Below are positions 1-10,412 of a DNA stretch of 10,412 bases, in pieces (position 1 is the stretch's first letter; every line of letters begins with the position of its first letter). The DNA is from SAR324 cluster bacterium (lineage in GTDB: Bacteria > SAR324 > JACQKK01), in the NCBI GenBank assembly GCA_027296185.1, contig JAPUJL010000490.1:1-10412 (forward strand), read 5' to 3'. The notes below the pieces were generated by a model that made no database searches, was not told the origin of the DNA, and saw only the letters and a program-made list of their open reading frames with translations. The position numbers and the translations under genes were made by a program.

Positions 1-51
1 CGCCTTGAGAAAGGCATAGCCGCCCGTGCCGCTGGTGTGGAGCTTGTACAC
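1..51 (-). CDS. possible partial CDS, 5' end only, running off the left edge
   Basis: This minus-strand frame is open from an in-frame TAA at 103-105 to the window edge. The first usable start is a GTG at 51-49, preceded by a GGGGCGG stretch that could serve as a weak ribosome site. From that start it reads VYKLHTSGTGGYAFLKA. Nearly all its codons end in G or C (15 of 17), as in the real genes here, while the other minus-strand frames in this stretch score lower. I do not recognise the protein. The fragment is too short for a firm call and could be chance or the remnant of a broken gene. Confidence 0.25.
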   Translation of the reverse strand, partial: MYKLHTSGTGGYAFLKA

Positions 52-198
52 GTCCGCCCCGGCCCGCCGCGCCGAAATCCGCCCGCCGGCCCAGTTCCTC
101 CGTTAACGACACCCACGAGTTCCCCGCACCGCCGCACCCCAGCCCGCGCCTCTCGAAAGTAGCCTCGATACCAATTCCCTACCTCGCCAGTAGCTACT

Positions 199-220
199 CT
201 GTCACAGGATATGGTGACAG
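199..220. promoter_or_regulatory. operator-like inverted repeat CTGTCAC-N8-GTGACAG upstream of the MFS gene
   Basis: Two perfect 7-bp arms, 199-205 and 214-220, are separated by 8 bp. Short outer arms CTAC (194-197) and GTAG (219-222 region) add to the symmetry with a small bulge. The right arm contains GTGACA, which differs from a consensus -35 box at one base. A -10-like GATAAC lies at 235-240, but the 15-bp spacing is short. The site sits about 80 bp before the MFS start, where a dimeric regulator could bind. The regulator is unknown. Confidence 0.35.
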
Positions 221-301
221 TAGGTCAGTTCCGTGATAACGTTTCGACATTAGGCCCCGCGGCGATCGGCGAAGCACGGAACGGAACCGGGCCGAGGCAA
301 A

Positions 302-1540
302 ATGGAAAGCTCCCATCGAATCGTACAGAGCAGCGCACAGGCGCTGCCGCACCTGCTTCCCGAGTCGCTCCGGGCGCAGCTGGCCCTGCCGGTGCTGGTG
401 CTCTCCCAGTTCCTGGCGCTGACCCTCTGGTTCAGCGGCAGTGCGGTCCTGCCGGCCCTGACGCGGGACTGGGGCCTGACCCAGAGCGACGGCGGGCTGC
501 TGCTCTCGGCGGTGAACGCCGGATTCATCCTGGGCACGCTGGTGCTCTCGCTGTTCAACCTGGCCGACAAGTTCTCGCCCAGCCGGGTCTTCCTCATCTC
601 CGCCCTCATCGGCGCGGGGGCCAACTGGCTCTTCGCGGAGGCCGCCACCGGCCTGGCGGATGGGTTGGCGTACCGGTTCGTGACGGGCGCGGCCCTGGCC
701 GGGCTCTACCCGGTGGGGATGAAGCTGGTCGTCACGTGGTTTCCCCACCGGGCCGGGAGCGCCCTGGGGTGGCTGGTGGGCGCGCTGACCCTCGGGTCGG
801 CCTCGCCGTACCTGTTCCGCTCCCTGGGCGCCGAGCTGCCCTGGCACGTGGTGATGGCCGCCACCTCTTCCCTGGCGGCGATCGCGGGCCTGCTCGTGGT
901 GGCGCTGGGGGACGGTCCTCATTCCGTCCCGGCGCGCAAGGTGGATCTGCGGATGATCTACCGCATCTTCACGATCCCCGGGTACCGTGGGGCGGCGCTG
1001 GGTTACTTCGGTCACATGTGGGAACTGTATGCCTTGTGGGTGCTCTCGCCGCTGTTGGTGCAGGCGGCACTGACGCCCCTGGGTCTGGCCTCCCCCCAAT
1101 GGATCGCCCTGGGTGCCTTCGCGGTGATCGGGCTCGGAGCCCTGGGCTGCATCGGCGGCGGCATCGTCAGCCGCCGGGTCGGGAGCCTGAAGGTGGCGGC
1201 GGTTTCCCTGGGGATCTCCGGCGCGCTGTGCATCGTCTCCCCGCTGCTGCTCGGCTTCAGCCCCTGGCTCTACCTGGGAGCGCTGGCGGTGTGGGGCATC
1301 TTCGTGGTGGCCGATTCGCCCCAGTTTTCCGCACTTTCCGCCCGCACGGCGCCGCCCGAATACGTGGCGACCGCGCTGACGGTGCAGAACGGGATCGGCT
1401 TCGCCCTCACCATCGCCTCGATCGAGCTCACCACTCGCGCCTTTACCTGGCTGGGCCCGGAGGTCTCCTGGCTGCTCGCCCCGGGGCCGGTGCTGGGGCT
1501 GTGGCTGCTCCTGCACCGCAAGAACCGCGGCCCCGCCTAG
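302..1540 (+). CDS. MFS transporter of unknown substrate, GHxWELY-containing type
   Basis: This is an integral inner-membrane carrier of the major facilitator superfamily, 412 residues, the usual size for a 12-helix member. Hydrophobic segments alternate with short loops across the whole length. The loop after the second helix has the weak motif-A-like LADKFSPSR (about 88-96). Helix 4 carries RFVTGAALAGLYPVGMK. The second half opens with GYFGHMWELYALWVL (about 235-249), a stretch I associate with a bacterial MFS subgroup often named cyanate-permease-like. The ATG at 302 is preceded by GAGG at 294-297 (4-nt gap). The first 25 residues are a hydrophilic cytosolic lead. The gene stands alone behind the 199-220 inverted repeat, converges on panC, and is followed by a hairpin at 1568. 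Uptake or export, and the substrate, cannot be told from sequence. Confidence 0.88.
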   Translation: MESSHRIVQSSAQALPHLLPESLRAQLALPVLVLSQFLALTLWFSGSAVLPALTRDWGLTQSDGGLLLSAVNAGFILGTLVLSLFNLADKFSPSRVFLISALIGAGANWLFAEAATGLADGLAYRFVTGAALAGLYPVGMKLVVTWFPHRAGSALGWLVGALTLGSASPYLFRSLGAELPWHVVMAATSSLAAIAGLLVVALGDGPHSVPARKVDLRMIYRIFTIPGYRGAALGYFGHMWELYALWVLSPLLVQAALTPLGLASPQWIALGAFAVIGLGALGCIGGGIVSRRVGSLKVAAVSLGISGALCIVSPLLLGFSPWLYLGALAVWGIFVVADSPQFSALSARTAPPEYVATALTVQNGIGFALTIASIELTTRAFTWLGPEVSWLLAPGPVLGLWLLLHRKNRGPA

Positions 1541-1567
1541 CGCCCGCGCACCTTTCTACATTCCGGC

Positions 1568-1588
1568 GAATCCCGACCCTCGGGAATC
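1568..1588. terminator. hairpin after the MFS gene, possible terminator without a T tract
   Basis: The arms GAATCCCGA (1568-1576) and TCGGGAATC (1580-1588) pair over 9 positions with one A-A mismatch around a 3-nt loop. The hairpin lies 27 nt after the MFS stop in a convergent gap. Neither strand shows a run of T after the stem, so a classic intrinsic terminator is not proven. It may instead be an mRNA 3'-end stabiliser. Confidence 0.4.
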
Positions 1589-1632
1589 CCTACGACGCGG
1601 GGTGTCCGCCCGAGTGCGGCCAAGGGCGGCGA

Positions 1633-1690
1633 CGCCCCTGCGCCTCGCATGAGACACGCCTCGCACAAGACAGCCGCCCCTGGGCCTCGC
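1633..1690. repeat. nested short direct repeats in the MFS-panC gap
   Basis: Two 16-bp units lie head to tail at 1641-1656 (CGCCTCGCATGAGACA) and 1657-1672 (CGCCTCGCACAAGACA) with 2 mismatches. An overlapping longer-range repeat pairs 1633-1648 with 1675-1690 (CGCCCCTG then C or G then GCCTCGC, 1 mismatch). The word GCCTCGC therefore occurs three times in under 50 bp. No coding frame explains it. The pattern looks like replication slippage in non-coding DNA between converging genes. Confidence 0.75.
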
Positions 1691-1703
1691 CGGGCTTGCG
1701 CTC

Positions 1704-1747
1704 GCCTATTCCGCGTTGAGCAGGAGCCTATTCCGCGTTGAGCAAGA
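1704..1747. repeat. 22-bp tandem duplication spanning the panC stop codon
   Basis: Units 1704-1725 and 1726-1747 are adjacent and differ at one base only (G1723 against A1745). The right-hand unit contains the last codons and the TAG of panC (1728-1730). The left-hand unit is an extra copy lying just after the stop, so the PanC protein is not altered. Confidence 0.85.
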
Positions 1748-2567
1748 GATTGTCGATGAGGCGGATCTTGCCGATCCGCACGGCGATCACCGCCCAGGCG
1801 GTCCCTTCGATGCCGTCCAGCCCGGCGAAAGTCTCCGGGTCCACGACGGCGGCGTAGTCCACCTCCGCCCGCGGTTCGGCGCGCAGCACCTCCTCCATCG
1901 CCGCGCACAACCGGGGGCCCCTGCGCTCGCCGCCGGCAAAGGCCTTCTGGGCCGCGCACAACGCCCGGTAAAGGACGGTCGAGGCGCGGCGATCCTCCGC
2001 GTCCAGATAGGCGTTGCGGGAACTCATGGCCAGGCCGTCGGGCTCCCGCACGGTGGGGCACACGACGATCTCGGTGAGCATGCCCAGGTCGGCGGCCATG
2101 CGGCGCACGACCACCGATTGCTGGGCGTCCTTCTGACCGAAGTAGGCCCGCTCGGGCTGGGTGAGGCAGAGCATCTTCGCCACCACCGTCGCCACCCCCT
2201 GGAAGTGGCCGGAGCGGTGGGCGCCCTCCAGCACCGAGGAGAGCGCCTCTACGTTGACGGTCGTCTGGAAGCCCGGGGGATAGACCCCCTCCACCTCCGG
2301 CGCGAGGACGTAATCGGTCCGCTCCTCCCGCAGCAGTGCCAGATCGCGCTCCATGTCGCGCGGGTAAGTACCGAAGTCCTCCCCCTCGCCGAACTGGGTG
2401 GGGTTGACGAAGATCCAGACCACCACCACCTCGTTCTCTTCCCGCGCCCGGCGCACCAGGGAGAGATGGCCCTCGTGCAGAAAACCCATGGTGGGAACGA
2501 GCCCCAGCGAGCGAGGCAGGCTGGGCCGGAACGCCTTCCATTCCTCCAGGGAACTGTAGATTTTCAT
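1728..2567 (-). CDS. panC: pantoate--beta-alanine ligase (pantothenate synthetase)
   Basis: This cytosolic enzyme joins pantoate and beta-alanine, using ATP through a pantoyl-adenylate, to make pantothenate for coenzyme A. The 279 residues cover the family end to end. The nucleotide-binding signature VPTMGFLHEGH is at 24-34 (HxGH 31-34). VNPTQF follows at 54-59, YPRD at 68-71, the FGQKD loop at 143-147, and MSSRNAYL, the KMSKS-equivalent loop, at 181-188. It ends IDNLLLNAE. I chose the ATG at 2567 because MKIYSSLEEW aligns with known PanC N-termini. An ATG at 2585 or a GTG at 2609 in frame would add 6 or 14 residues unlike the family. The weak promoter at 2627-2655 would put the transcript start almost on the GTG, which also favours a later start. 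panB and panD, frequent partners, are not in the window. The neighbours are the divergent amidase and the convergent MFS gene. Confidence 0.96.
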   Translation of the reverse strand: MKIYSSLEEWKAFRPSLPRSLGLVPTMGFLHEGHLSLVRRAREENEVVVVWIFVNPTQFGEGEDFGTYPRDMERDLALLREERTDYVLAPEVEGVYPPGFQTTVNVEALSSVLEGAHRSGHFQGVATVVAKMLCLTQPERAYFGQKDAQQSVVVRRMAADLGMLTEIVVCPTVREPDGLAMSSRNAYLDAEDRRASTVLYRALCAAQKAFAGGERRGPRLCAAMEEVLRAEPRAEVDYAAVVDPETFAGLDGIEGTAWAVIAVRIGKIRLIDNLLLNAE

Positions 2568-2626
2568 TCGGTGATTCGTTCCCATCGCGCGTCGAAAACC
2601 CCGCTTCACCCCGGTTTGTGCTAGGA

Positions 2627-2655
2627 AATGTACCCCATCGAGCGGGCGGGATGAA
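2627..2655 (-). promoter_or_regulatory. possible sigma70-type promoter for panC
   Basis: On the minus strand TTCATC (2655-2650, 3 of 6 consensus bases) and TACATT (2632-2627, 4 of 6) are separated by exactly 17 bp. The predicted transcript start near 2620 gives a leader of about 50 nt before the ATG at 2567. The boxes are weak, so this is only suggestive. Confidence 0.3.
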
Positions 2656-2697
2656 GCCCCACCGTTCTCTCACCGCGACCCAGCGCCAGGACCCTCA

Positions 2698-4143
2698 ATG
2701 GCCGACCCGCCCCTCCACGAACGAACCATCGCCGAGCTTTCCGCGCAAATTCACAGCGGGGCATTATCGCCCGTGGAACTGACCGAGCACCTGCTCGCGC
2801 GCATCGAGCGCTACGACGCGGCGCTCAATGCCTTTCGCCTGGTACTGGGCGAGCGGGCCCTGGCCGAGGCGCGGGCGGCCGAGACGGCGCTGAAGGCCGG
2901 CGCCAGCCTGGGGCCGTTGCACGGGATACCCTATGCCCTCAAGGACCTGCTGGACGTGAAGGGCTATCCCACCACGGCGGGCTGGCCGCGGCGGGAGGAT
3001 CACGTCGCCGGCGAGGACTCCACCGTGGTGGCGCGGCTGGCGCGGGCGGGGATGATTCTGCTGGGCAAGACCAATCTGGTGCAGTTCGCTTACGGCGGCG
3101 TGGGGATCAACCACCATCACGGCACGCCCCGCAACCCCTGGAACCCGCGGGATCACTGCGTGCCGGGCGGCTCCAGCAGCGGCTCGGGCGTGGCCGTGGC
3201 GGCGGGGCTGGCGCCCATGGGCATCGGCTCGGATACCGGCGGGTCGGTGCGCATCCCCGCCTCCCTCAACGGGACGGTGGGGCTGAAGACCACCGTGGGC
3301 CGGATCAGCAAACACGGCGTGTTCCCGCTCAGCCCGAGCCTGGATACCATCGGCCCGCTTACCCGCTCGGTGGAGGACGCGGCGCTGACCTACCAGGCCA
3401 TGCACGGACCCGATCTCCGCGATCCGCTGACCGCGAACTTTCCCCTGCACGACACGCTCGCCACCCTCAAGAGCGGGGTGAAGGGCATGCGCATGGCCTT
3501 CGCCGAATCGGTGTTCTGGGAGGAGCTCGATCCCGATGTGGAGAAAGCCGTGCGGGCCTGCGGCCAGGTCTTCCAGGATTTGGGCGCGAACGTGGAGAGC
3601 GCCGCCTTCCGCGAGGCCGAGGATGCGCAGAAGCTCAACCCGCGCGGGCTGGTCATCGCCTGCGAAGCGTACAGCCTGCACCAGGAGGTTCTGGAAAACC
3701 ACTTCGACGAGATCGACCCCATCGTGGCCCACCGCGCCATCCGGGGAAAGGACGTGACGGCGGCGGAGTACATCCGGCTCACCACCGCCTGGGAGGGCCT
3801 CCGCGCGCGGGCGCAGGAGGCCATGCGCGATCTCGACGTGCTCCTGGTGCCCAGCACGGCCATTCCCGCCCGGCCGCTGAAGGAGGCCGACGGCGGGATC
3901 GAGGTCTACTCCAAACACAACCTGATGTACCTGCGGAACACTGCCATCGGCAACATCCTCAACCTTTGCGCGGTCTCGGTGCCCTGTGGATTCACCTCCC
4001 AGGGCATGCCGATCGGACTGATGATCTACGGCAAGCCCCACGCCGAGGCGACGGTACTTCGTGCCGCGTACGCCTACGAGCAGGCGACCGAGTGGCACAC
4101 CCGCGTCCCGGAACTCTCCTGGGCGGCCGCAAGCGCCGGCTAG
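2698..4143 (+). CDS. amidase signature family enzyme (stand-alone, GatA-like)
   Basis: This is a 481-residue amidase signature (AS) hydrolase that cleaves a carbon-nitrogen amide bond through a Ser-cisSer-Lys triad. Lys82 lies in PYALKDLLD. The glycine/serine-rich core at 157-164 (GGSSSGSG) supplies the cis serine, probably Ser159. The nucleophile is Ser183 in SDTGGSVRIP (178-187). The spacing matches GatA of the Glu-tRNA(Gln) amidotransferase. The C-terminus has the usual GLMIYGKP and TEWHTRVPEL. The ATG at 2698 has AGGA at 2688-2691, 6 nt upstream. No gatB or gatC is adjacent and the gene is divergent from panC, so a free-standing amidase acting on a small amide is more likely than a translation role. 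The substrate cannot be predicted. No signal peptide is visible, so it should be cytosolic. A link to beta-alanine supply for PanC is conceivable but unsupported. Confidence 0.92.
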   Translation: MADPPLHERTIAELSAQIHSGALSPVELTEHLLARIERYDAALNAFRLVLGERALAEARAAETALKAGASLGPLHGIPYALKDLLDVKGYPTTAGWPRREDHVAGEDSTVVARLARAGMILLGKTNLVQFAYGGVGINHHHGTPRNPWNPRDHCVPGGSSSGSGVAVAAGLAPMGIGSDTGGSVRIPASLNGTVGLKTTVGRISKHGVFPLSPSLDTIGPLTRSVEDAALTYQAMHGPDLRDPLTANFPLHDTLATLKSGVKGMRMAFAESVFWEELDPDVEKAVRACGQVFQDLGANVESAAFREAEDAQKLNPRGLVIACEAYSLHQEVLENHFDEIDPIVAHRAIRGKDVTAAEYIRLTTAWEGLRARAQEAMRDLDVLLVPSTAIPARPLKEADGGIEVYSKHNLMYLRNTAIGNILNLCAVSVPCGFTSQGMPIGLMIYGKPHAEATVLRAAYAYEQATEWHTRVPELSWAAASAG

Positions 4144-4240
4144 TCCGCCGCCGCCCAGACCCACGTCACGGGACGTAAGTCGAAATTGAATTCGCGAGTG
4201 CCGCGGCCCTGGCCTCGCGGCGTTCTATAAATCCCCTTCC

Positions 4241-4269
4241 TTGACACCCCCCGAGGCCCTACCTACCAT
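4241..4269 (+). promoter_or_regulatory. sigma70-type promoter for the methyltransferase-protease-HD gene run
   Basis: A perfect TTGACA (4241-4246) and TACCAT (4264-4269, 4 of 6 consensus bases) are spaced by 17 bp. Transcription would start near 4276, about 57 nt before the methyltransferase ATG. It is the best promoter match I found in the window. Confidence 0.55.
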
Positions 4270-4284
4270 CGGATAGGGGCCTCG
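4252..4284. promoter_or_regulatory. inverted repeat enclosing the -10 box, candidate operator
   Basis: CGAGGCCCTA (4252-4261) and TAGGGGCCTCG (4274-4284) are complementary apart from one extra G in the right arm. The centre coincides with the TACCAT box. A protein bound here would block RNA polymerase. Alternatively the transcribed right arm could take part in leader RNA folding. No T run follows, so a terminator for the amidase is less likely. Confidence 0.45.
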
Positions 4285-4332
4285 CGCCCTTGCGGCGGGG
4301 GCCGGGGGCTAACGACTCGATGGTAAGCGGCG

Positions 4333-4956
4333 ATGGAAGCGGCGATCGAATCCGTGCTGAAGGAGTTTCACGAACGCTCCGAGCGGGAGGGGGAGCTGTA
4401 CCGGAGCCTCTCCTCCGAGGAGTTCCATGCACGGATCGACGAGTTCCTGCTCCCCATCGGTCCGGAAGCCGGGCGGCTGGTCAACATGCTGATCAAGACC
4501 CGTGGCGCCCGCGCCATCGTCGAGGTGGGCACCTCTCACGGGTACTCGGCGGTGTGGTTGGCCGAGGCGGCACGAGCGACAGGGGGCCATGTGACCTCCT
4601 TCGACATCCATGCCGGCAAGCAGGAATACGCCCGTCAGGCGCTGGAACGGGCGGGGCTTGCCCAATTTGTGGAATTCGTTCTGGGGGATGCCCAGGAGTT
4701 GATTCCCCAGTTGCCGGGGAGCGTCGAATTCGCCCTGGTCGATCACTGGAAGTCGCTCTACGTGCCCTGCTACGAGGTGTTGCTGCCCAAGCTGGCCCCG
4801 GAGGCGCTGATCGTGGCGGACAACATGATCTTCCCGGAGGATCGGGAAGGACACATCCAGGCCTATCTGGAGCGGGTCCGTGGCACGACCGGCATGGAGA
4901 CCGTCACGGTGCCCATCGGGAACGGCCTGGAGTTGAGCCGCTACGCCGCCCCCTAG
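4333..4956 (+). CDS. class I SAM-dependent O-methyltransferase (catechol-type fold)
   Basis: This 207-residue soluble protein is close in size to the bacterial O-methyltransferase family (about 200-220). The SAM-binding glycine loop is VEVGTSHGYSAVWLAE (63-78). An acidic residue after beta-2 is in TSFDIHAGK (88-96), and LGDAQEL (117-123) matches motif III. VDHW (136-139) and VADNMIFPE (161-169) fit the Asp and Asp-Asn positions that bind the divalent metal in catechol O-methyltransferase-like enzymes, with Asp137, Asp163 and Asn164 as candidates. In many relatives the residue before the lysine is DADK or DGDH rather than DHWK, so the active site is slightly unusual. The ribosome site is weak (AAGCGG at 4325-4330). 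The gene is first in a + strand run behind the 4241 promoter and is followed 81 bp later by the protease gene. The acceptor substrate is unknown. Confidence 0.87.
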   Translation: MEAAIESVLKEFHERSEREGELYRSLSSEEFHARIDEFLLPIGPEAGRLVNMLIKTRGARAIVEVGTSHGYSAVWLAEAARATGGHVTSFDIHAGKQEYARQALERAGLAQFVEFVLGDAQELIPQLPGSVEFALVDHWKSLYVPCYEVLLPKLAPEALIVADNMIFPEDREGHIQAYLERVRGTTGMETVTVPIGNGLELSRYAAP

Positions 4957-5037
4957 GGCTCCGGCGCGCGCCGCGACGAACGTGCTGGGTTTCCGGATGC
5001 GGCCTGCGCCGATCGCCCTGAACCACCGCTCCCAACC

Positions 5038-6366
5038 GTGTGGACCATGAACTGGGCAATGAACTGGCCGATGAACGGGATCGTCGGGATCTTCCTGGTC
5101 CTGTTCGCCGCCAAATGGTTGGTGGAAAACGGGCTGTTGTGGCTCAACCTGGCCCACGTGCGCCGGGCCGGGGCGTCCGTCCCCCCCGCGCTCGCCGGCC
5201 GGATCGAGCCTGAGGCCGCCGCAAAGAGCGCCCGCTACACCCTGGCGCGGGGGCGCTTCGGCTTTCTCCGCGGCCTGTTCGGCGCGGCGTTGGCCCTGGT
5301 GCTGCTGTTTTCCGGGGTGATGCCGTGGCTCGACCGGGTCTTGAGCGGCGGCGGCGGCCCGCTTCCGCCACTGGACGGGATTCCGCTCTCCGCCGTGTTC
5401 CTGATCGTGCTGGGGGCCGCCTCCTCCCTGGCGGGGCTTCCCTTCGCGCTCTACGGAACCTTCGTGATCGAGGAGCGGTTCGGCTTCAACCGCCAGACCG
5501 CGCGGGGGTGGATCGCGGACCGGCTGAAGGGCTTGGCCGTGGCGGCGGTGCTGGGCCTGCCGCTGCTGTGGGGGGTGCTGGCCTTCATGGCCCATGCCGG
5601 CCGGTGGTGGTGGCTGTGGGTGTTCGCCTTCGTCACCGCCTATCAACTGGCCTTGGTGTGGATCGTTCCCACGTGGATCGCGCCCCTGTTCAACAAGTTC
5701 AGCCCCCTCGCCGACCTGGAGCTGAAGGAGCGCCTGGAAACCCTGGCCAAGCGGGCGGGGTTCCGCACCCGCGGGCTGTACACCATGGATGCCTCGCGCC
5801 GCACCGGCCATTCCAACGCCTACTTTACCGGCCTGGGCCGCACCAAGCGCATCGTGTTGTTCGATACCATGCTCGACCGGCTGACCCACGACCAGACGCT
5901 GTCCGTCCTTGCCCACGAGATCGGCCACTACCGGCTGCGCCACATCGCCCGGCGGCTGGCCCTGGGCGTGGGCACGACGCTGGTGATGCTCTACGTGCTC
6001 AGTCTGCTGGAGCGCTGGCCGGCCCTGTACGCGGCTTTCGGCTTCGCCGGGCCCTCCCATCATGCGTTGCTGGCGCTGGTGGCGCTGGGCGGCGGGGCGT
6101 TCACGTTCTACCTCAGCCCGCTCGCGGCGTGGTACTCCCGGCGCCACGAGTACGAGGCGGACGCCTACGCGGTGGAACTGGCGCGGATGCCCGGGGCGCT
6201 GAAGAGCGCCCTGGTCGAGTTCAGCGATCAGAACCTGTCGAACCTCAACCCGCACCCGTGGTATAGCGCGTATTACTATTCCCATCCCGCCTTGCCCCAG
6301 CGCCTGGCTGCGATCGACGGCGCGGCGGTGCACCTGCCCCCAGTGCAGGGGGCGGGCGAATCCTAG
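5038..6366 (+). CDS. M48 family CAAX-type membrane metalloprotease (Ste24-like)
   Basis: This is a zinc-dependent inner-membrane protease of the Ste24/ZMPSTE24 branch of peptidase family M48. Counted from the GTG at 5038 it has 442 residues and about seven hydrophobic segments (near 14-36, 82-98, 117-140, 166-186, 191-212, 304-325, 343-366), the Ste24 topology. The zinc site is LAHEIGHYRLRH, with His293, Glu294 and His297, plus Glu371 of the ExxxD motif EYEAD (371-375). SRRTGHSNAYFTG (253-265), KRIVLFDTML (270-279) and SHPALPQRL (415-423) are family blocks. In yeast Ste24 trims prenylated CAAX proteins; bacteria lack that substrate and these homologues are thought to act in membrane protein quality control (inference). 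Start choice is uncertain: there is no clear ribosome site, and in-frame ATGs follow at 5047, 5059 and 5071. The gene lies 57 bp before the HD-domain gene, probably in one transcript. Confidence 0.93.
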   Translation: MWTMNWAMNWPMNGIVGIFLVLFAAKWLVENGLLWLNLAHVRRAGASVPPALAGRIEPEAAAKSARYTLARGRFGFLRGLFGAALALVLLFSGVMPWLDRVLSGGGGPLPPLDGIPLSAVFLIVLGAASSLAGLPFALYGTFVIEERFGFNRQTARGWIADRLKGLAVAAVLGLPLLWGVLAFMAHAGRWWWLWVFAFVTAYQLALVWIVPTWIAPLFNKFSPLADLELKERLETLAKRAGFRTRGLYTMDASRRTGHSNAYFTGLGRTKRIVLFDTMLDRLTHDQTLSVLAHEIGHYRLRHIARRLALGVGTTLVMLYVLSLLERWPALYAAFGFAGPSHHALLALVALGGGAFTFYLSPLAAWYSRRHEYEADAYAVELARMPGALKSALVEFSDQNLSNLNPHPWYSAYYYSHPALPQRLAAIDGAAVHLPPVQGAGES

Positions 6367-6423
6367 CGGACGGAAAAGCTTCCCGCCGCGGGAGCGGGCG
6401 GTGGAGCGAAGGCAAAGGCGACC

Positions 6424-8790
6424 ATGCTGGCCACCACCGGATCCAAGGCCACCGAACCGAACCGCAAAGGCCGCGGCGCTTCCGGGACTTCCGATGTCCT
6501 GGACATGCCCGAGCTGTACTACGAGCTCACCACGGTGGAGGAACAGGAGCGCCACCGCGCCAAGCTGGCGCGGTTGGATTCGCCGCGGAAGCTGCTCATC
6601 GAGGCGGTGCCGGACGAGGCCGGCGGGTGGCAGGCCGAGCTGGTGACCATGGACTGGGAGGAGCCGGGGCTGCTGGACCGCACCTTCGAGGCGATCCTCA
6701 ATTGCGTCCACATACCCGGCGGCATCGCGCTCCGCCGCATCCGCATTTTCACCGGCCGCTCCGGCCAGGTGGTCAACATCCTCGAATTCCGCGACAAGCA
6801 GGGCGGCCCCCTGCTCAAGGAGCGTTGCGAGGCGGTAATGGCCCGGCTGCGGGGTATCCAGCGGGGCGAGCGGGGCGTGCTGGAAACCATCAGCAACCTC
6901 GCCTTCAACACGCTGATCCCCTCGCTCACCGAGTATCCCCAATTGGACAACGAGCGGTCGGAGCACTACACCTACCTCGGGTTGACGGTGCCCCGGCTCT
7001 CCACCCGATTTTCCAGCATCCTGCTCCATTTCCTGGCGCGTTCGGAATTCCAGGTGAACATCCAGTTGGCGGAGTTCCGCCAGGAGCAGAGTGGGTTGTA
7101 CTCCCTCTACGTGGTGGACAAGCGGGGCCGGAAGCTGGAGGATTCCCACTTCACCCGCATGAGCATGGTGAACACCCTCGAGGCGATGAACCGCACGATC
7201 CTGCGGTTCAACCTCCACTACGTGCGCAAGGGCTGGAATCTGCGCATCGAGCGCAACGACGCCACCATCTATCGCAGCCGCCCGGACCCCACGGACTTAC
7301 TGGAGGATCTGGAGAGCGTGTGCCGCCTGGGCCGGCTGAAAGGCTACGGCGAACAGCTGAGCGGCTTGGTTGAGGGGGACCTGCTCGATTCCACCGCCTT
7401 CTACTTCCTGAAGAATTTCGAGTCCTTCTGCACCCGGAACCGGGAGCGATTTCTCGCCATGGCGAACGCGCCCCCCTCCGACGCCGACGTGGAGCTGTGC
7501 CGGGAGTACTTCGAGCAGCGGCGGCGGTCGTTGCGCATCCTGCAGCCGCTCTACCGGAAGCTGATGAGCCTCGAGCCGATCCGGCCCAGGCTGGAGGATG
7601 GCAACCGGCTGGTGGCGCTCTGCCGTCCCCATTCGGCCGCCGGGTACGCCCTGGACGCCGACAATCGGCTGTACCTGACCGAATCCATGTGGCTGGCCGA
7701 GCCGCAGATGGCCTTCGAGCCCTTCCGGCTCATGGCCCGCACGGGCTGCAAGCTGCGCGAGGACACCCAAGACGCCGTCCAGGCGGCGCTGGAGGCCTGG
7801 ACGCCCCAGTTCATCGCCGAACGGCGGGAGGCCCTAGGGGCGGCGTTTCTCCTCATCCTGGAGGAGAGCCTGCACCAAGGCACGGCGGCGCTCGTGCTGC
7901 GCAACATGCGGCACATGGGGCTGCTGCAGCGCTACCTGCCCGGCTTCGCCCGCATTACCGGCTTGATCCACGTGGTCTCGGACCACACCTACACCGTGGA
8001 CGAGCACTCCATCATCGCCGTGGAGGCGCTGACCGGAATCGGCCTGCTGCGCACGGTCTGCCCCGCGCCCGGCCTTTCGGCCATGCGGAAAGACTACGAA
8101 CGGCTCGATTCGGGCCTCGGCCTGGCCATGTACGCGCGCAAGTACGCCGTGGAGGAGCGGATGCTGCGGGCCGTGCCGCAGCTGCGCAGTCACCCGGCGA
8201 TCAAGCCCTTCTTTCACCTGATGGACGAGGTGCGGTCGAACAACCTGGAATACATCGTGGAGATGAACCTGCTCGATCGCAGCCAGGCCACCTCCCTGGG
8301 TGCCTTGCATCAGATCGAGGACGTGCGTACCCAGTTGGATGCCCTGCTGCGGCTGGACGAGGCCCTGGGCTTCACCGTTCGGCGCGACCTAGTGCTGGCG
8401 GCGCTGTTGCACGACATGGACAAGCCCGACCCCGATCACGGGCACAGCTTCGCGCCCCGGGTGGGCAAGACCCTGGCCGCCATGGGAATCCAGCTGCCGG
8501 AGGACTCCCAACAGCGCATCGAATGGATCGTGCGCCACCACCTGGACCTGACGGAATTGGCCGCCCGGATCGGCAGCGAGGGCGAGCGGGCGCTTGAGGA
8601 CTATCTGGCCCAGTGCGGCGGGAGCGCCCGCCTGCGCCCGTTGATCCTGTTCACCTATGCGGACCGGGTGGCGGTGCATCCCGATTCGAGCCAGAACGCT
8701 CACCACGCGATGGTGCTCAGCGGCTTGCTCAGAATGGTCGAGGCGGCGGACGGAGCCGCCCCCACCGAACCCCGCCTGGCGGGAAAATAG
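6424..8790 (+). CDS. GlnD-related HD-domain protein with two N-terminal ACT-like regions and no nucleotidyltransferase domain
   Basis: This 788-residue protein has the following order. About 67-140 is ACT-like: DWEEPGLLDR (77-86), a beta strand ALRRIRIFTGRSGQVVNILEF and DKQGGPLL, matching the DRPGLL...G.V.D.F...G pattern of GlnD ACT domains. About 183-262 is a second ACT-like unit (LGLTVPRLSTRF, SLYVVDKRGRKL). About 300-515 is helical and ends in RNMRHMGLLQRYLPGFARITG (first 20 of these at 493-512), very close to GlnD. The HD domain carries YTVDEH (523-528), LLHDMDK (661-667), DHGHS (671-675), RHHLDL (704-709) and TYADR (744-748). Its metal-ligand candidates His528, His663, Asp664, His674, His705/706 and Asp747 are all present. 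The G-S-x-D-x-D nucleotidyltransferase signature of GlnD is not seen. The ATG has AAGG at 6415-6418, 5 nt upstream. I infer a ligand-sensing phosphohydrolase; uridylyl-PII removal is one candidate activity. Confidence 0.93.
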   Translation: MLATTGSKATEPNRKGRGASGTSDVLDMPELYYELTTVEEQERHRAKLARLDSPRKLLIEAVPDEAGGWQAELVTMDWEEPGLLDRTFEAILNCVHIPGGIALRRIRIFTGRSGQVVNILEFRDKQGGPLLKERCEAVMARLRGIQRGERGVLETISNLAFNTLIPSLTEYPQLDNERSEHYTYLGLTVPRLSTRFSSILLHFLARSEFQVNIQLAEFRQEQSGLYSLYVVDKRGRKLEDSHFTRMSMVNTLEAMNRTILRFNLHYVRKGWNLRIERNDATIYRSRPDPTDLLEDLESVCRLGRLKGYGEQLSGLVEGDLLDSTAFYFLKNFESFCTRNRERFLAMANAPPSDADVELCREYFEQRRRSLRILQPLYRKLMSLEPIRPRLEDGNRLVALCRPHSAAGYALDADNRLYLTESMWLAEPQMAFEPFRLMARTGCKLREDTQDAVQAALEAWTPQFIAERREALGAAFLLILEESLHQGTAALVLRNMRHMGLLQRYLPGFARITGLIHVVSDHTYTVDEHSIIAVEALTGIGLLRTVCPAPGLSAMRKDYERLDSGLGLAMYARKYAVEERMLRAVPQLRSHPAIKPFFHLMDEVRSNNLEYIVEMNLLDRSQATSLGALHQIEDVRTQLDALLRLDEALGFTVRRDLVLAALLHDMDKPDPDHGHSFAPRVGKTLAAMGIQLPEDSQQRIEWIVRHHLDLTELAARIGSEGERALEDYLAQCGGSARLRPLILFTYADRVAVHPDSSQNAHHAMVLSGLLRMVEAADGAAPTEPRLAGK

Positions 8791-8799
8791 AGCGGCGCG

Positions 8800-10185
8800 T
8801 CAGTCGGCGGCCGGAGCCTCCCGCCGTTCGCGGAGACCGGAGCGCAGCCAGGCCAGGCAGCCCACGAAGAGCAGGACGCTGTTGATGGCGAAGTAGGTGC
8901 GCAGGCCGAACGCCGGGCCGATCCAGCCGCTGAGCAACGGGCCGGCGCCCATCCCCAGCATCCCGAAGGATGTCCCCAGGGCCATGGTGCGCGCCTCCAT
9001 GCCCGGCGGGGCGAGCTGCTTCATCACCGTGACCAGGGCCGGCATGATCCCCCCGGCCAGCAGCCCGAACGTCAGCCGCGCCAGGGTGAGGTGCAGCGGC
9101 ACTTGTGCGAGCCAGGTGGGGATGCTGCCCAGCGCTCCGGCGAACATGGCGAGCGCGAGCACCCGGTGGATCTCGAAGCGGTCCAGCACCCGGCCCCAGA
9201 TGGGCATCCCCAGGGCGCTGGGCACGGCGACGGCGATGGCCACGGCGGCCATCCAGAACTCCTCGGAGTTTCCGCCCGCCGCGGCGCCCCCCTGCAGCAT
9301 GTCCAGCATGAAGACCGAGGCGACCGGGATGCTGCCGAAGAAGGAGAAGCTGAATATGAAGTTCAGACCGAACAAAGTCGGCAGCGCCGGGATGCGCACC
9401 AGGTGGCGCAGGTCGCGCACGATCGTCAGCCGGAAGGGCCCCTTGGGCGGATCCTTCCGCTCGCGGGTGAAGATCAGGGCCATCAGCCCGGCGCCGAGGA
9501 TGAAACCCCCCGTCACGTAATAGAGGTCCAGGTAGCGCGGCAAGATCACCGCCAGGAGCCCGCCCAGGACAGGGCCCAGCGTGTTGCCCAGCAGGGCGCC
9601 TGTCTGGATTTGGGAGAGGGCCTTGCCCATCTTCCGCACCGGGGTATTGGTGGCGGCGAGGGCCAGGGACGATGGGACGAACCCATTGAACGCGCCCATG
9701 GCCACGTACAGGGCCATGAACATCCATGGCGCCGTGGAGAACGGCAACAGCATGTACACGATGCCCATGCCCAGCCCGGCGCGGATTACCATGGGCTTGC
9801 GGCCGTAGTGATCCGCCACCATCCCCCACATCGGGGTGAGGAAGAAGCTGACGACGAAGAAGCCCCCCACCGTGTAACCCACCGAGGTTGCCAGGTTGCC
9901 CCGGAATCCCAGCTCCCGGAGAATCAGCGGCAGATAGGGCGAGGCGGAGGCGAACCCGCAGGTGAGCATCATGTTCGCTACGAAGAGCGACACCATGTTG
10001 CGCCGCCAGTAAGGGTACGGCTCGGCCCGTTCCGGTTGCGCGGCGGCCTCGGTCAATTCGGCGGGCTCCGAGGATTCGGGGGATTCGGCGGATGAGGCGG
10101 TTCGGTCTTGCACGGCCGTGCGGCGGAAAGGGCGCTTCCTGGCGCTATTCGGAAGAAAAGGCGTGACGCTTCGGGTTTCCGCCAT
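8800..10185 (-). CDS. MFS transporter of MdtG-like multidrug/efflux type with a hydrophilic N-terminal extension
   Basis: This is an inner-membrane major facilitator, 461 residues from the ATG at 10185. Residues 59-63 (YWRRN) and the following first helix align with MdtG-type efflux carriers. Motif A is GMVADHYGRKPMVIR (about 120-134). The next helices carry ALYVAMGAFNGFVPSS and ALLGNTLGPVLGGLL, where motif C-like glycine/proline packing points to an antiporter. The second half repeats the motif as GRVLDRFEIHR (about 347-357). The first 58 residues are hydrophilic and rich in Ser, Pro and Glu, and carry a tripeptide repeat. The start is uncertain: the only good promoter-like pair overlaps the ATG, and a GTG at 10113 (residue 25) is an alternative, whereas the ATG at 9996 would remove the conserved WRRN. 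It converges on the HD gene with 9 bp between stops. Drug or metabolite efflux is inference. Confidence 0.9.
   Translation of the reverse strand: MAETRSVTPFLPNSARKRPFRRTAVQDRTASSAESPESSEPAELTEAAAQPERAEPYPYWRRNMVSLFVANMMLTCGFASASPYLPLILRELGFRGNLATSVGYTVGGFFVVSFFLTPMWGMVADHYGRKPMVIRAGLGMGIVYMLLPFSTAPWMFMALYVAMGAFNGFVPSSLALAATNTPVRKMGKALSQIQTGALLGNTLGPVLGGLLAVILPRYLDLYYVTGGFILGAGLMALIFTRERKDPPKGPFRLTIVRDLRHLVRIPALPTLFGLNFIFSFSFFGSIPVASVFMLDMLQGGAAAGGNSEEFWMAAVAIAVAVPSALGMPIWGRVLDRFEIHRVLALAMFAGALGSIPTWLAQVPLHLTLARLTFGLLAGGIMPALVTVMKQLAPPGMEARTMALGTSFGMLGMGAGPLLSGWIGPAFGLRTYFAINSVLLFVGCLAWLRSGLRERREAPAAD
10048..10092 (-). repeat. 9-bp repeat coding for a Ser/Pro-x-Glu tripeptide series
   Basis: Within the N-terminal extension of the MFS protein, residues 32-46 read SAE SPE SSE PAE LTE. 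At DNA level five 9-bp units follow each other, of which TCCGCCGAA, TCCCCCGAA and CCCGCCGAA are near copies. This suggests growth by slippage. The segment is probably a flexible cytosolic tail. Confidence 0.7.
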
Positions 10186-10213
10186 TGTTCCGGCTGAGCC
10201 GGGCCGCTGTCAA
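10184..10213 (-). promoter_or_regulatory. promoter-like pair overlapping the annotated start of the MdtG-like gene
   Basis: On the minus strand a perfect TTGACA (10213-10208) is followed after 18 bp by AACAAT (10189-10184, 4 of 6 consensus bases), which runs into the ATG at 10185. If used, the transcript would begin near 10177, inside the reading frame, and translation would have to start later, for example at the GTG at 10113. Confidence 0.35.
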
Positions 10214-10412
10214 GGCGCGGTCGAGGCGGAAAGTCCAGCCCTGCCGATGCCGTCCCGCCGTTGCCCGCGGCGGCGACTTGTGACACAGTGCTTCCGCGGC
10301 GGGTCCGGCCGGGCCCCTCGGCGTCCGCTGAAATGCGCTCCCGCCGTTCCGTTACGCCGGGCGAGCTCGCCCGGAGCGTCTCCCACCCCTCCCATCCGAT
10401 CGGTCGAGCGAT
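10186..10412. other. right-end intergenic stretch with an 18-bp perfect palindrome at 10357-10374
   Basis: CCGGGCGAGCTCGCCCGG at 10357-10374 is its own reverse complement. No T run follows on either side, so it looks more like a protein-binding site than a terminator. A + strand frame opens with ATG at 10333 and stays open to the edge, reading MRSRRSVTPGELARSVSH at its start with mostly G/C-ending codons. It has no visible ribosome site and would run straight through the palindrome, so I do not call it a gene. Minus-strand frames here look like GC-driven noise. Confidence 0.5.

Follow-up and report, generated by a model that had tools for sequence, protein, structure and literature searches.

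Where does a GlnD-like protein belong when its sensor domains stand in front and its nucleotidyltransferase is gone? The question is raised by a gene in the window, the whole 10,412-nucleotide stretch analysed here (positions 1 to 10,412 of the forward strand of contig JAPUJL010000490.1, assembly GCA_027296185.1, SAR324 cluster bacterium). GlnD is the textbook bifunctional PII uridylyltransferase (UTase)/uridylyl-removing (UR) enzyme, with the canonical order nucleotidyltransferase-HD-ACT-ACT. According to passages of PMC4285133 and PMC3480911, the UTase activity resides in the N-terminal domain and the UR activity in the HD domain. A first-pass annotation, made from the window's sequence alone, had read the gene as ACT-ACT-helical-HD with the nucleotidyltransferase missing, and had proposed either a stand-alone UR enzyme or a phosphohydrolase with another substrate, possibly acting alongside a normal GlnD. 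Our analysis bears out this domain order by profile matches, a structural model and 46 of 47 aligned family members, and suggests that the gene quite probably encodes a stand-alone, amino-acid-gated UR enzyme for PII, one half of a divided GlnD system.

The window gene is a circularly permuted GlnD without its nucleotidyltransferase

The gene and the parts of its product are as follows.

6424..8790, plus strand: whole gene, an intact open reading frame of 788 residues encoding a permuted GlnD-derived ACT-ACT-helical-HD protein
6505..6567, plus strand: N-terminal segment MPELYYELTTVEEQERHRAKL, matched in the alignment to the linker that joins HD and ACT1 in E. coli GlnD
6595..6849, plus strand: ACT1, residues 58-142, with β1-α1 loop EPGLLD
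6970..7203, plus strand: ACT2, residues 183-260, with a loop lacking PGL
7207..7569, plus strand: helical region, residues 262-382, a diverged GlnD_UR_UTase (PF08335-like)
7594..7956, plus strand: hairpin and neck, residues 391-511, the GlnD central part, with a fold common to A-adding/CCA-adding enzymes
7957..8748, plus strand: HD phosphohydrolase domain, residues 512-775

In its native order, the protein gave two separate GlnD profile matches (scores 213 and 106). Rotated so that residues 265-788 precede residues 28-264, it gave a single colinear match to residues 197-873 of E. coli GlnD (score 303, E 1e-36). This outscored a rotation cut at residue 420 (278), which is unsuitable as a negative control because it also leaves ACT behind HD; reversed sequences, used as the negative control, scored 18-21. 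Relative to canonical GlnD, the window gene is circularly permuted.

A nucleotidyltransferase hidden in the front part was looked for and not found, either by GlnD profile or in the secondary structure of the modeled protein: the GGxGR...SDxD motif is not found in the window protein, the GlnD profile match begins downstream of it, and the model contains no nucleotidyltransferase fold. The ACT pair, by contrast with its place in GlnD, lies in this front part, as the first-pass annotation had supposed, and both units were located by profile match. On E. coli GlnD, the nucleotidyltransferase motif lies at residues 94-107 and PF08335 starts at residue 193.

The first 22 residues of the window protein are of low confidence, and conserved homology runs from M28 (base 6505) onward. 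Since the conserved start aligns with the linker between HD and ACT1 of GlnD, the new N-terminus corresponds to the old HD-ACT junction. The helical region joins ACT2 at the point matching the end of the GlnD nucleotidyltransferase; as aligned, the new C-terminus is the end of the HD domain, and the old C-terminus is fused to the residues directly past the lost nucleotidyltransferase. Such a gene would have arisen from GlnD through loss of the nucleotidyltransferase and a shift of the ACT pair from the C- to the N-terminus.

ACT1, ACT2, the helical region, the neck and the HD domain align with segments of GlnD, known from E. coli (b0167) and Rhodospirillum rubrum, colinearly after rotation and with the same HD ligands. 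The window protein differs from GlnD in lacking the nucleotidyltransferase, in carrying the ACT pair in front, in an HD insertion of about 95 residues and in an altered ACT2 loop, and it stays far below the NCBIfam equivalog cut-offs (87 against 959 bits and 79 against 519 bits). The GlnD_UR_UTase helical region is present by profile-profile match, with a weak signal from Pfam PF08335 (9 of 47 members, best E 0.0037); searched alone, the ACT region, the HD insertion and the middle part each matched no Pfam family. In the ACT1 loop, glycine G82 is found in 46 of 46 ungapped rows of the family alignment, and a passage of PMC3173338 treats the role of the β1-α1 loop glycine. The ACT2 loop (window 7000-7011) lacks the usual glycine, PGL being replaced by an invariant S193-x-R195-F196 in the window protein and 46 homologues, which may indicate a different ligand or interface.

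Homology and profile searches covered 5.8 billion proteins, of which only the roughly 8000 candidates with the most words in common were scored. The first search returned 54 proteins, 49 full or partial family members (47-98% identity) and five of GlnD type; the profile search returned 56, namely the same 54, one further partial member and one GlnD-type transferase. The family alignment holds 47 members with a mean column identity of 57%; P0001 (a 98% copy) and the partial P0048-P0049 were excluded, and the partial P0086 was found later. A separate set of 28 rows leaves out P0057, which lacks the HD part. The domain order is kept among the 47 aligned members: in 46 of them a single reading frame covers everything from ACT1 through HD, and P0043 begins after ACT1. 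Such conservation refutes the idea that an ordinary diverged GlnD or a CCA/A-adding enzyme had been misread through a frameshift or assembly error, which we regard as hardly credible; the gene occurs in nine genomes, with recurrent neighbours in several and no nucleotidyltransferase part. The sequence families that match the window protein are GlnD models, not CCA models. The sequence match to a solved poly(A) polymerase is limited to profile positions 462-523, and structural matches of this kind are no proof that a nucleotidyltransferase head is absent. Proteins of about 470 residues from family f2 that match GlnD 331-546 were considered as stand-alone HD candidates and rejected, being judged CCA-type tRNA nucleotidyltransferases on a by-eye reading of six (five from f2, one from f4), with no family search.

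The HD metal site is intact

The metal ligands and the insertion between them are as follows.

8005..8007, plus strand: HD ligand H528 (YTVDEH), in 46 of 46 alignment rows with this segment
8062..8340, plus strand: helical HD insertion of about 95 residues (about 547-639), of constant length and absent from GlnD
8410..8415, plus strand: HD doublet H663-D664 (LLHDMDKP), 47 of 47 aligned
8437..8439, plus strand: HD ligand H672, 47 of 47 aligned
8539..8541, plus strand: HD ligand H706 (RHHL), 47 of 47 aligned
8662..8664, plus strand: HD ligand D747 (TYADR), 47 of 47 aligned

All HD metal-ligand positions are filled, as had been noticed in the window protein itself, and they are invariant across the family, as is K667 of the HD motif (47 of 47). 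The protein carries the H...HD...D signature of the HD-domain phosphohydrolase superfamily; with an E limit of 1, PF01966 matches 44 of the 47 members, the window protein (E 0.00046) falling just below the curated cut-off. Among HD families, only GlnD models match it. The ligand spacing across the insertion is 138 in 46 of 46 members measured, compared with 41-46 for six of the seven canonical GlnD proteins, and the insertion (mean identity 0.54, eight genomes) is about as conserved as the remainder of the protein.

The resident GlnD has lost the HD site that the permuted protein keeps

The permuted gene is present in nine of the ten genomes of the window's family (f1) and nowhere else among 52 genomes of the phylum; a weak extra match in G030 falls inside that genome's GlnD-type gene. 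A pattern scan of public species genomes returned ten loci, eight of the permuted family and two of canonical GlnD, the eight lying on contigs whose length marks them as those of G001-G004 and G006-G009.

A SAR324-type GlnD of about 1150 residues occurs in families f1, f2 and f4; it carries the same functional set and is the probable partner of the window protein. The window's own genome (G000) encodes it on contig C306. In f1, its transferase motif is intact and its HD metal site, unlike that of the window protein, is destroyed. All seven HD positions are kept in none of the 8 readable f1 genomes versus 40 of 40 in f2 and f4, a count that leaves out G024 (C-terminal fragment only) and G005, G008 and G041 (no GlnD-type protein found). 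Among f2 and f4, every readable copy but that of G042 retains the nucleotidyltransferase motif; the motif is unreadable in G002, G038 and G046. The companion foreseen by the first-pass annotation was thus found, but it is not the normal GlnD it had assumed. Because the partner has lost the site that the window protein retains, the latter would act in place of, and not alongside, the HD domain of GlnD. Every f1 genome that yielded a GlnD-type protein (8 of 8) also has the permuted gene.

Two observations concern other copies of the SAR324-type GlnD. In G042:C97 (L165, f4) the transferase motif is altered to FIRGSISRNELTFLSDIDFGY with HD ligands intact, a possible mirror case, judged from its motifs, of UR without UTase. 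The GlnD-type reading frames in G025:C1 and G038:C148 (L158, L159) are broken by stops or split across frames, through either sequencing error or real change.

PII itself keeps Tyr51 in 15 of 16 f1 copies with a readable T-loop (20 PF00543 matches, less two G005 fragments without T-loop and the divergent G003:C92 and G008:C440), and GlnE was found in eight of the ten f1 genomes.

A divided PII switch and its alternatives

In the switch that we propose, the resident f1 GlnD, its HD site dead, would put uridine monophosphate (UMP) on PII Tyr51, and the HD metal site of the window protein would hydrolyse UMP off PII under the control of its own ACT pair, so that writer and eraser would each have a separate ACT pair. 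We infer PII-UMP as the substrate, and glutamine would be the most likely gating amino acid; passages of PMC4285133 and PMC6490700 describe glutamine as stimulating UR. A stand-alone UR enzyme, the first option of the first-pass annotation, is best supported by the kept HD ligands and the decayed HD of the partner. On balance, we find it likely that the resident GlnD became UTase-only with a fossil HD domain, erasing having passed to a permuted, transferase-free fragment, possibly foreign, with its own sensor and independent control.

Several points weigh against this proposal. The partner's HD loss and the permuted gene are confined to one clade, so their association is a single event; it draws its strength from decay at a specific site and from the retention of complementary parts, and none from co-occurrence that recurs. 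The partner owes its GlnD label to its motifs, its fold and weak matches to models, and nothing in the 52 genomes reaches the TIGR01693 cut-off of 519 bits, the highest score being 122. G008 (89% complete) has the permuted gene with no GlnD-type protein found, and G005 (72% complete) has neither. The second PII of the window genome (L168, G000:C246:2992-3309) lacks Tyr51, its T-loop reading YRGVREAVN versus YRGAEY, and is therefore not uridylylatable in the usual way. Conservation of the window-type HD core (0.51) is not above that of the other domains (0.48-0.58). Nor is glutamine control universal, the R. rubrum transferase not being glutamine-regulated according to a reference title in PMC3480911.

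The HD insertion and the changed ACT2 loop could also reflect a shift of substrate or effector, and no PII, glnD, glnA or any nitrogen-regulation gene lies beside the permuted gene in the window. Both observations would suit a GlnD-derived, amino-acid-gated HD phosphohydrolase that has lost PII deuridylylation and moved to another substrate, such as a second-messenger nucleotide or a different nucleotidylylated protein, as would the statement in the GlnK-AmtB passage of PMC4285133 that many organisms leave PII unmodified. We consider this unlikely given that the GlnD HD motif set is kept (YTVDEH in 46 of 46; HD..K, H672, H706 and AD in 47 of 47), that GlnD models alone match among HD families, and that the partner's transferase motif and PII Tyr51 are retained; modified PII without an eraser would be a one-way switch.

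The permuted gene and its partner lie on separate contigs in all 8 draft genomes that have both, which counts against the divided switch and also against a single complex of the window protein and the decayed GlnD, with HD working in trans and neither protein truly stand-alone. ACT pairs in both proteins, their nature as complementary halves of one enzyme and their joint presence in all eight genomes speak for such a complex, in which any contact between the two would itself be conjectural. It departs from the divided switch in quaternary arrangement alone, and we hold it to be improbable.

Origin and genomic neighbourhood

The best profile score of the window type is 213 against canonical GlnD, 66 against the f2/f4 sample of SAR324-type GlnD and 52 against the f1 type, and profile comparison gave no ACT match between the window type and either SAR324-type set. 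Since it is far closer to canonical than to SAR324-type GlnD, it is no recent copy of the resident GlnD. An unrooted tree of the helical and HD regions (12 of 47 window-type, 7 canonical and 19 of 48 SAR324-type rows) placed each of the three groups on its own side of a branch (canonical only 68/49), with f1 unity at 100/100; given a long-branch warning, we use only f1 unity from this tree, which cannot decide between canonical and SAR324-type descent of the window type. The window type may have been acquired from another phylum, or it may descend from an ancient duplicate. In the simplest account, a second, permuted GlnD copy would have arrived and reciprocal loss would have followed.

In the window, the neighbours (302-6366 and 8800-10185) are an MFS transporter, panC (minus strand), an amidase, an O-methyltransferase, an M48 CAAX-type protease and an MFS transporter (minus strand). 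In six of nine loci, as called by a crude gene caller on often short contigs, the gene immediately upstream of the permuted one is that of the M48 protease; panC recurs in four, and the amidase and the methyltransferase in three each. These recurring neighbours fit vertical inheritance within f1. In G006 (L111, G006:C4:7369-10197), DNA topoisomerase I takes the place of the M48 protease.

Relation to known systems and implications

PphA, a cyanobacterial phosphatase acting on phosphorylated PII, is likewise a separate eraser of a PII modification, but with different chemistry and fold and unrelated to GlnD. RelA, whose HD domain has decayed, and SpoT share one domain order. They likewise divide opposed activities between proteins, one with a degenerate HD domain (in a passage of PMC4848567, RelA is a monofunctional synthetase and SpoT is bifunctional); here, in contrast, the hydrolase half has undergone circular permutation and retains nothing of the transferase domain. 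Among the titles and abstract openings listed in our literature search, which did not extend to most subscription journals, we found no UR enzyme standing alone, no GlnD that has lost its HD domain and no work combining SAR324 with GlnD; one paper was listed for SAR324 together with PII protein.

If the proposal holds, UMP would be written on and erased from PII by two separate, independently controllable proteins. The lineage would offer a clear example of a signalling enzyme that underwent circular permutation, after which the other copy suffered the reciprocal loss. With the two activities in two genes and the eraser cut out and rotated, the system would be a natural experiment on which ACT pair controls which activity. 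It would also test the reason for the usual fusion of both sites, and supply monofunctional parts.
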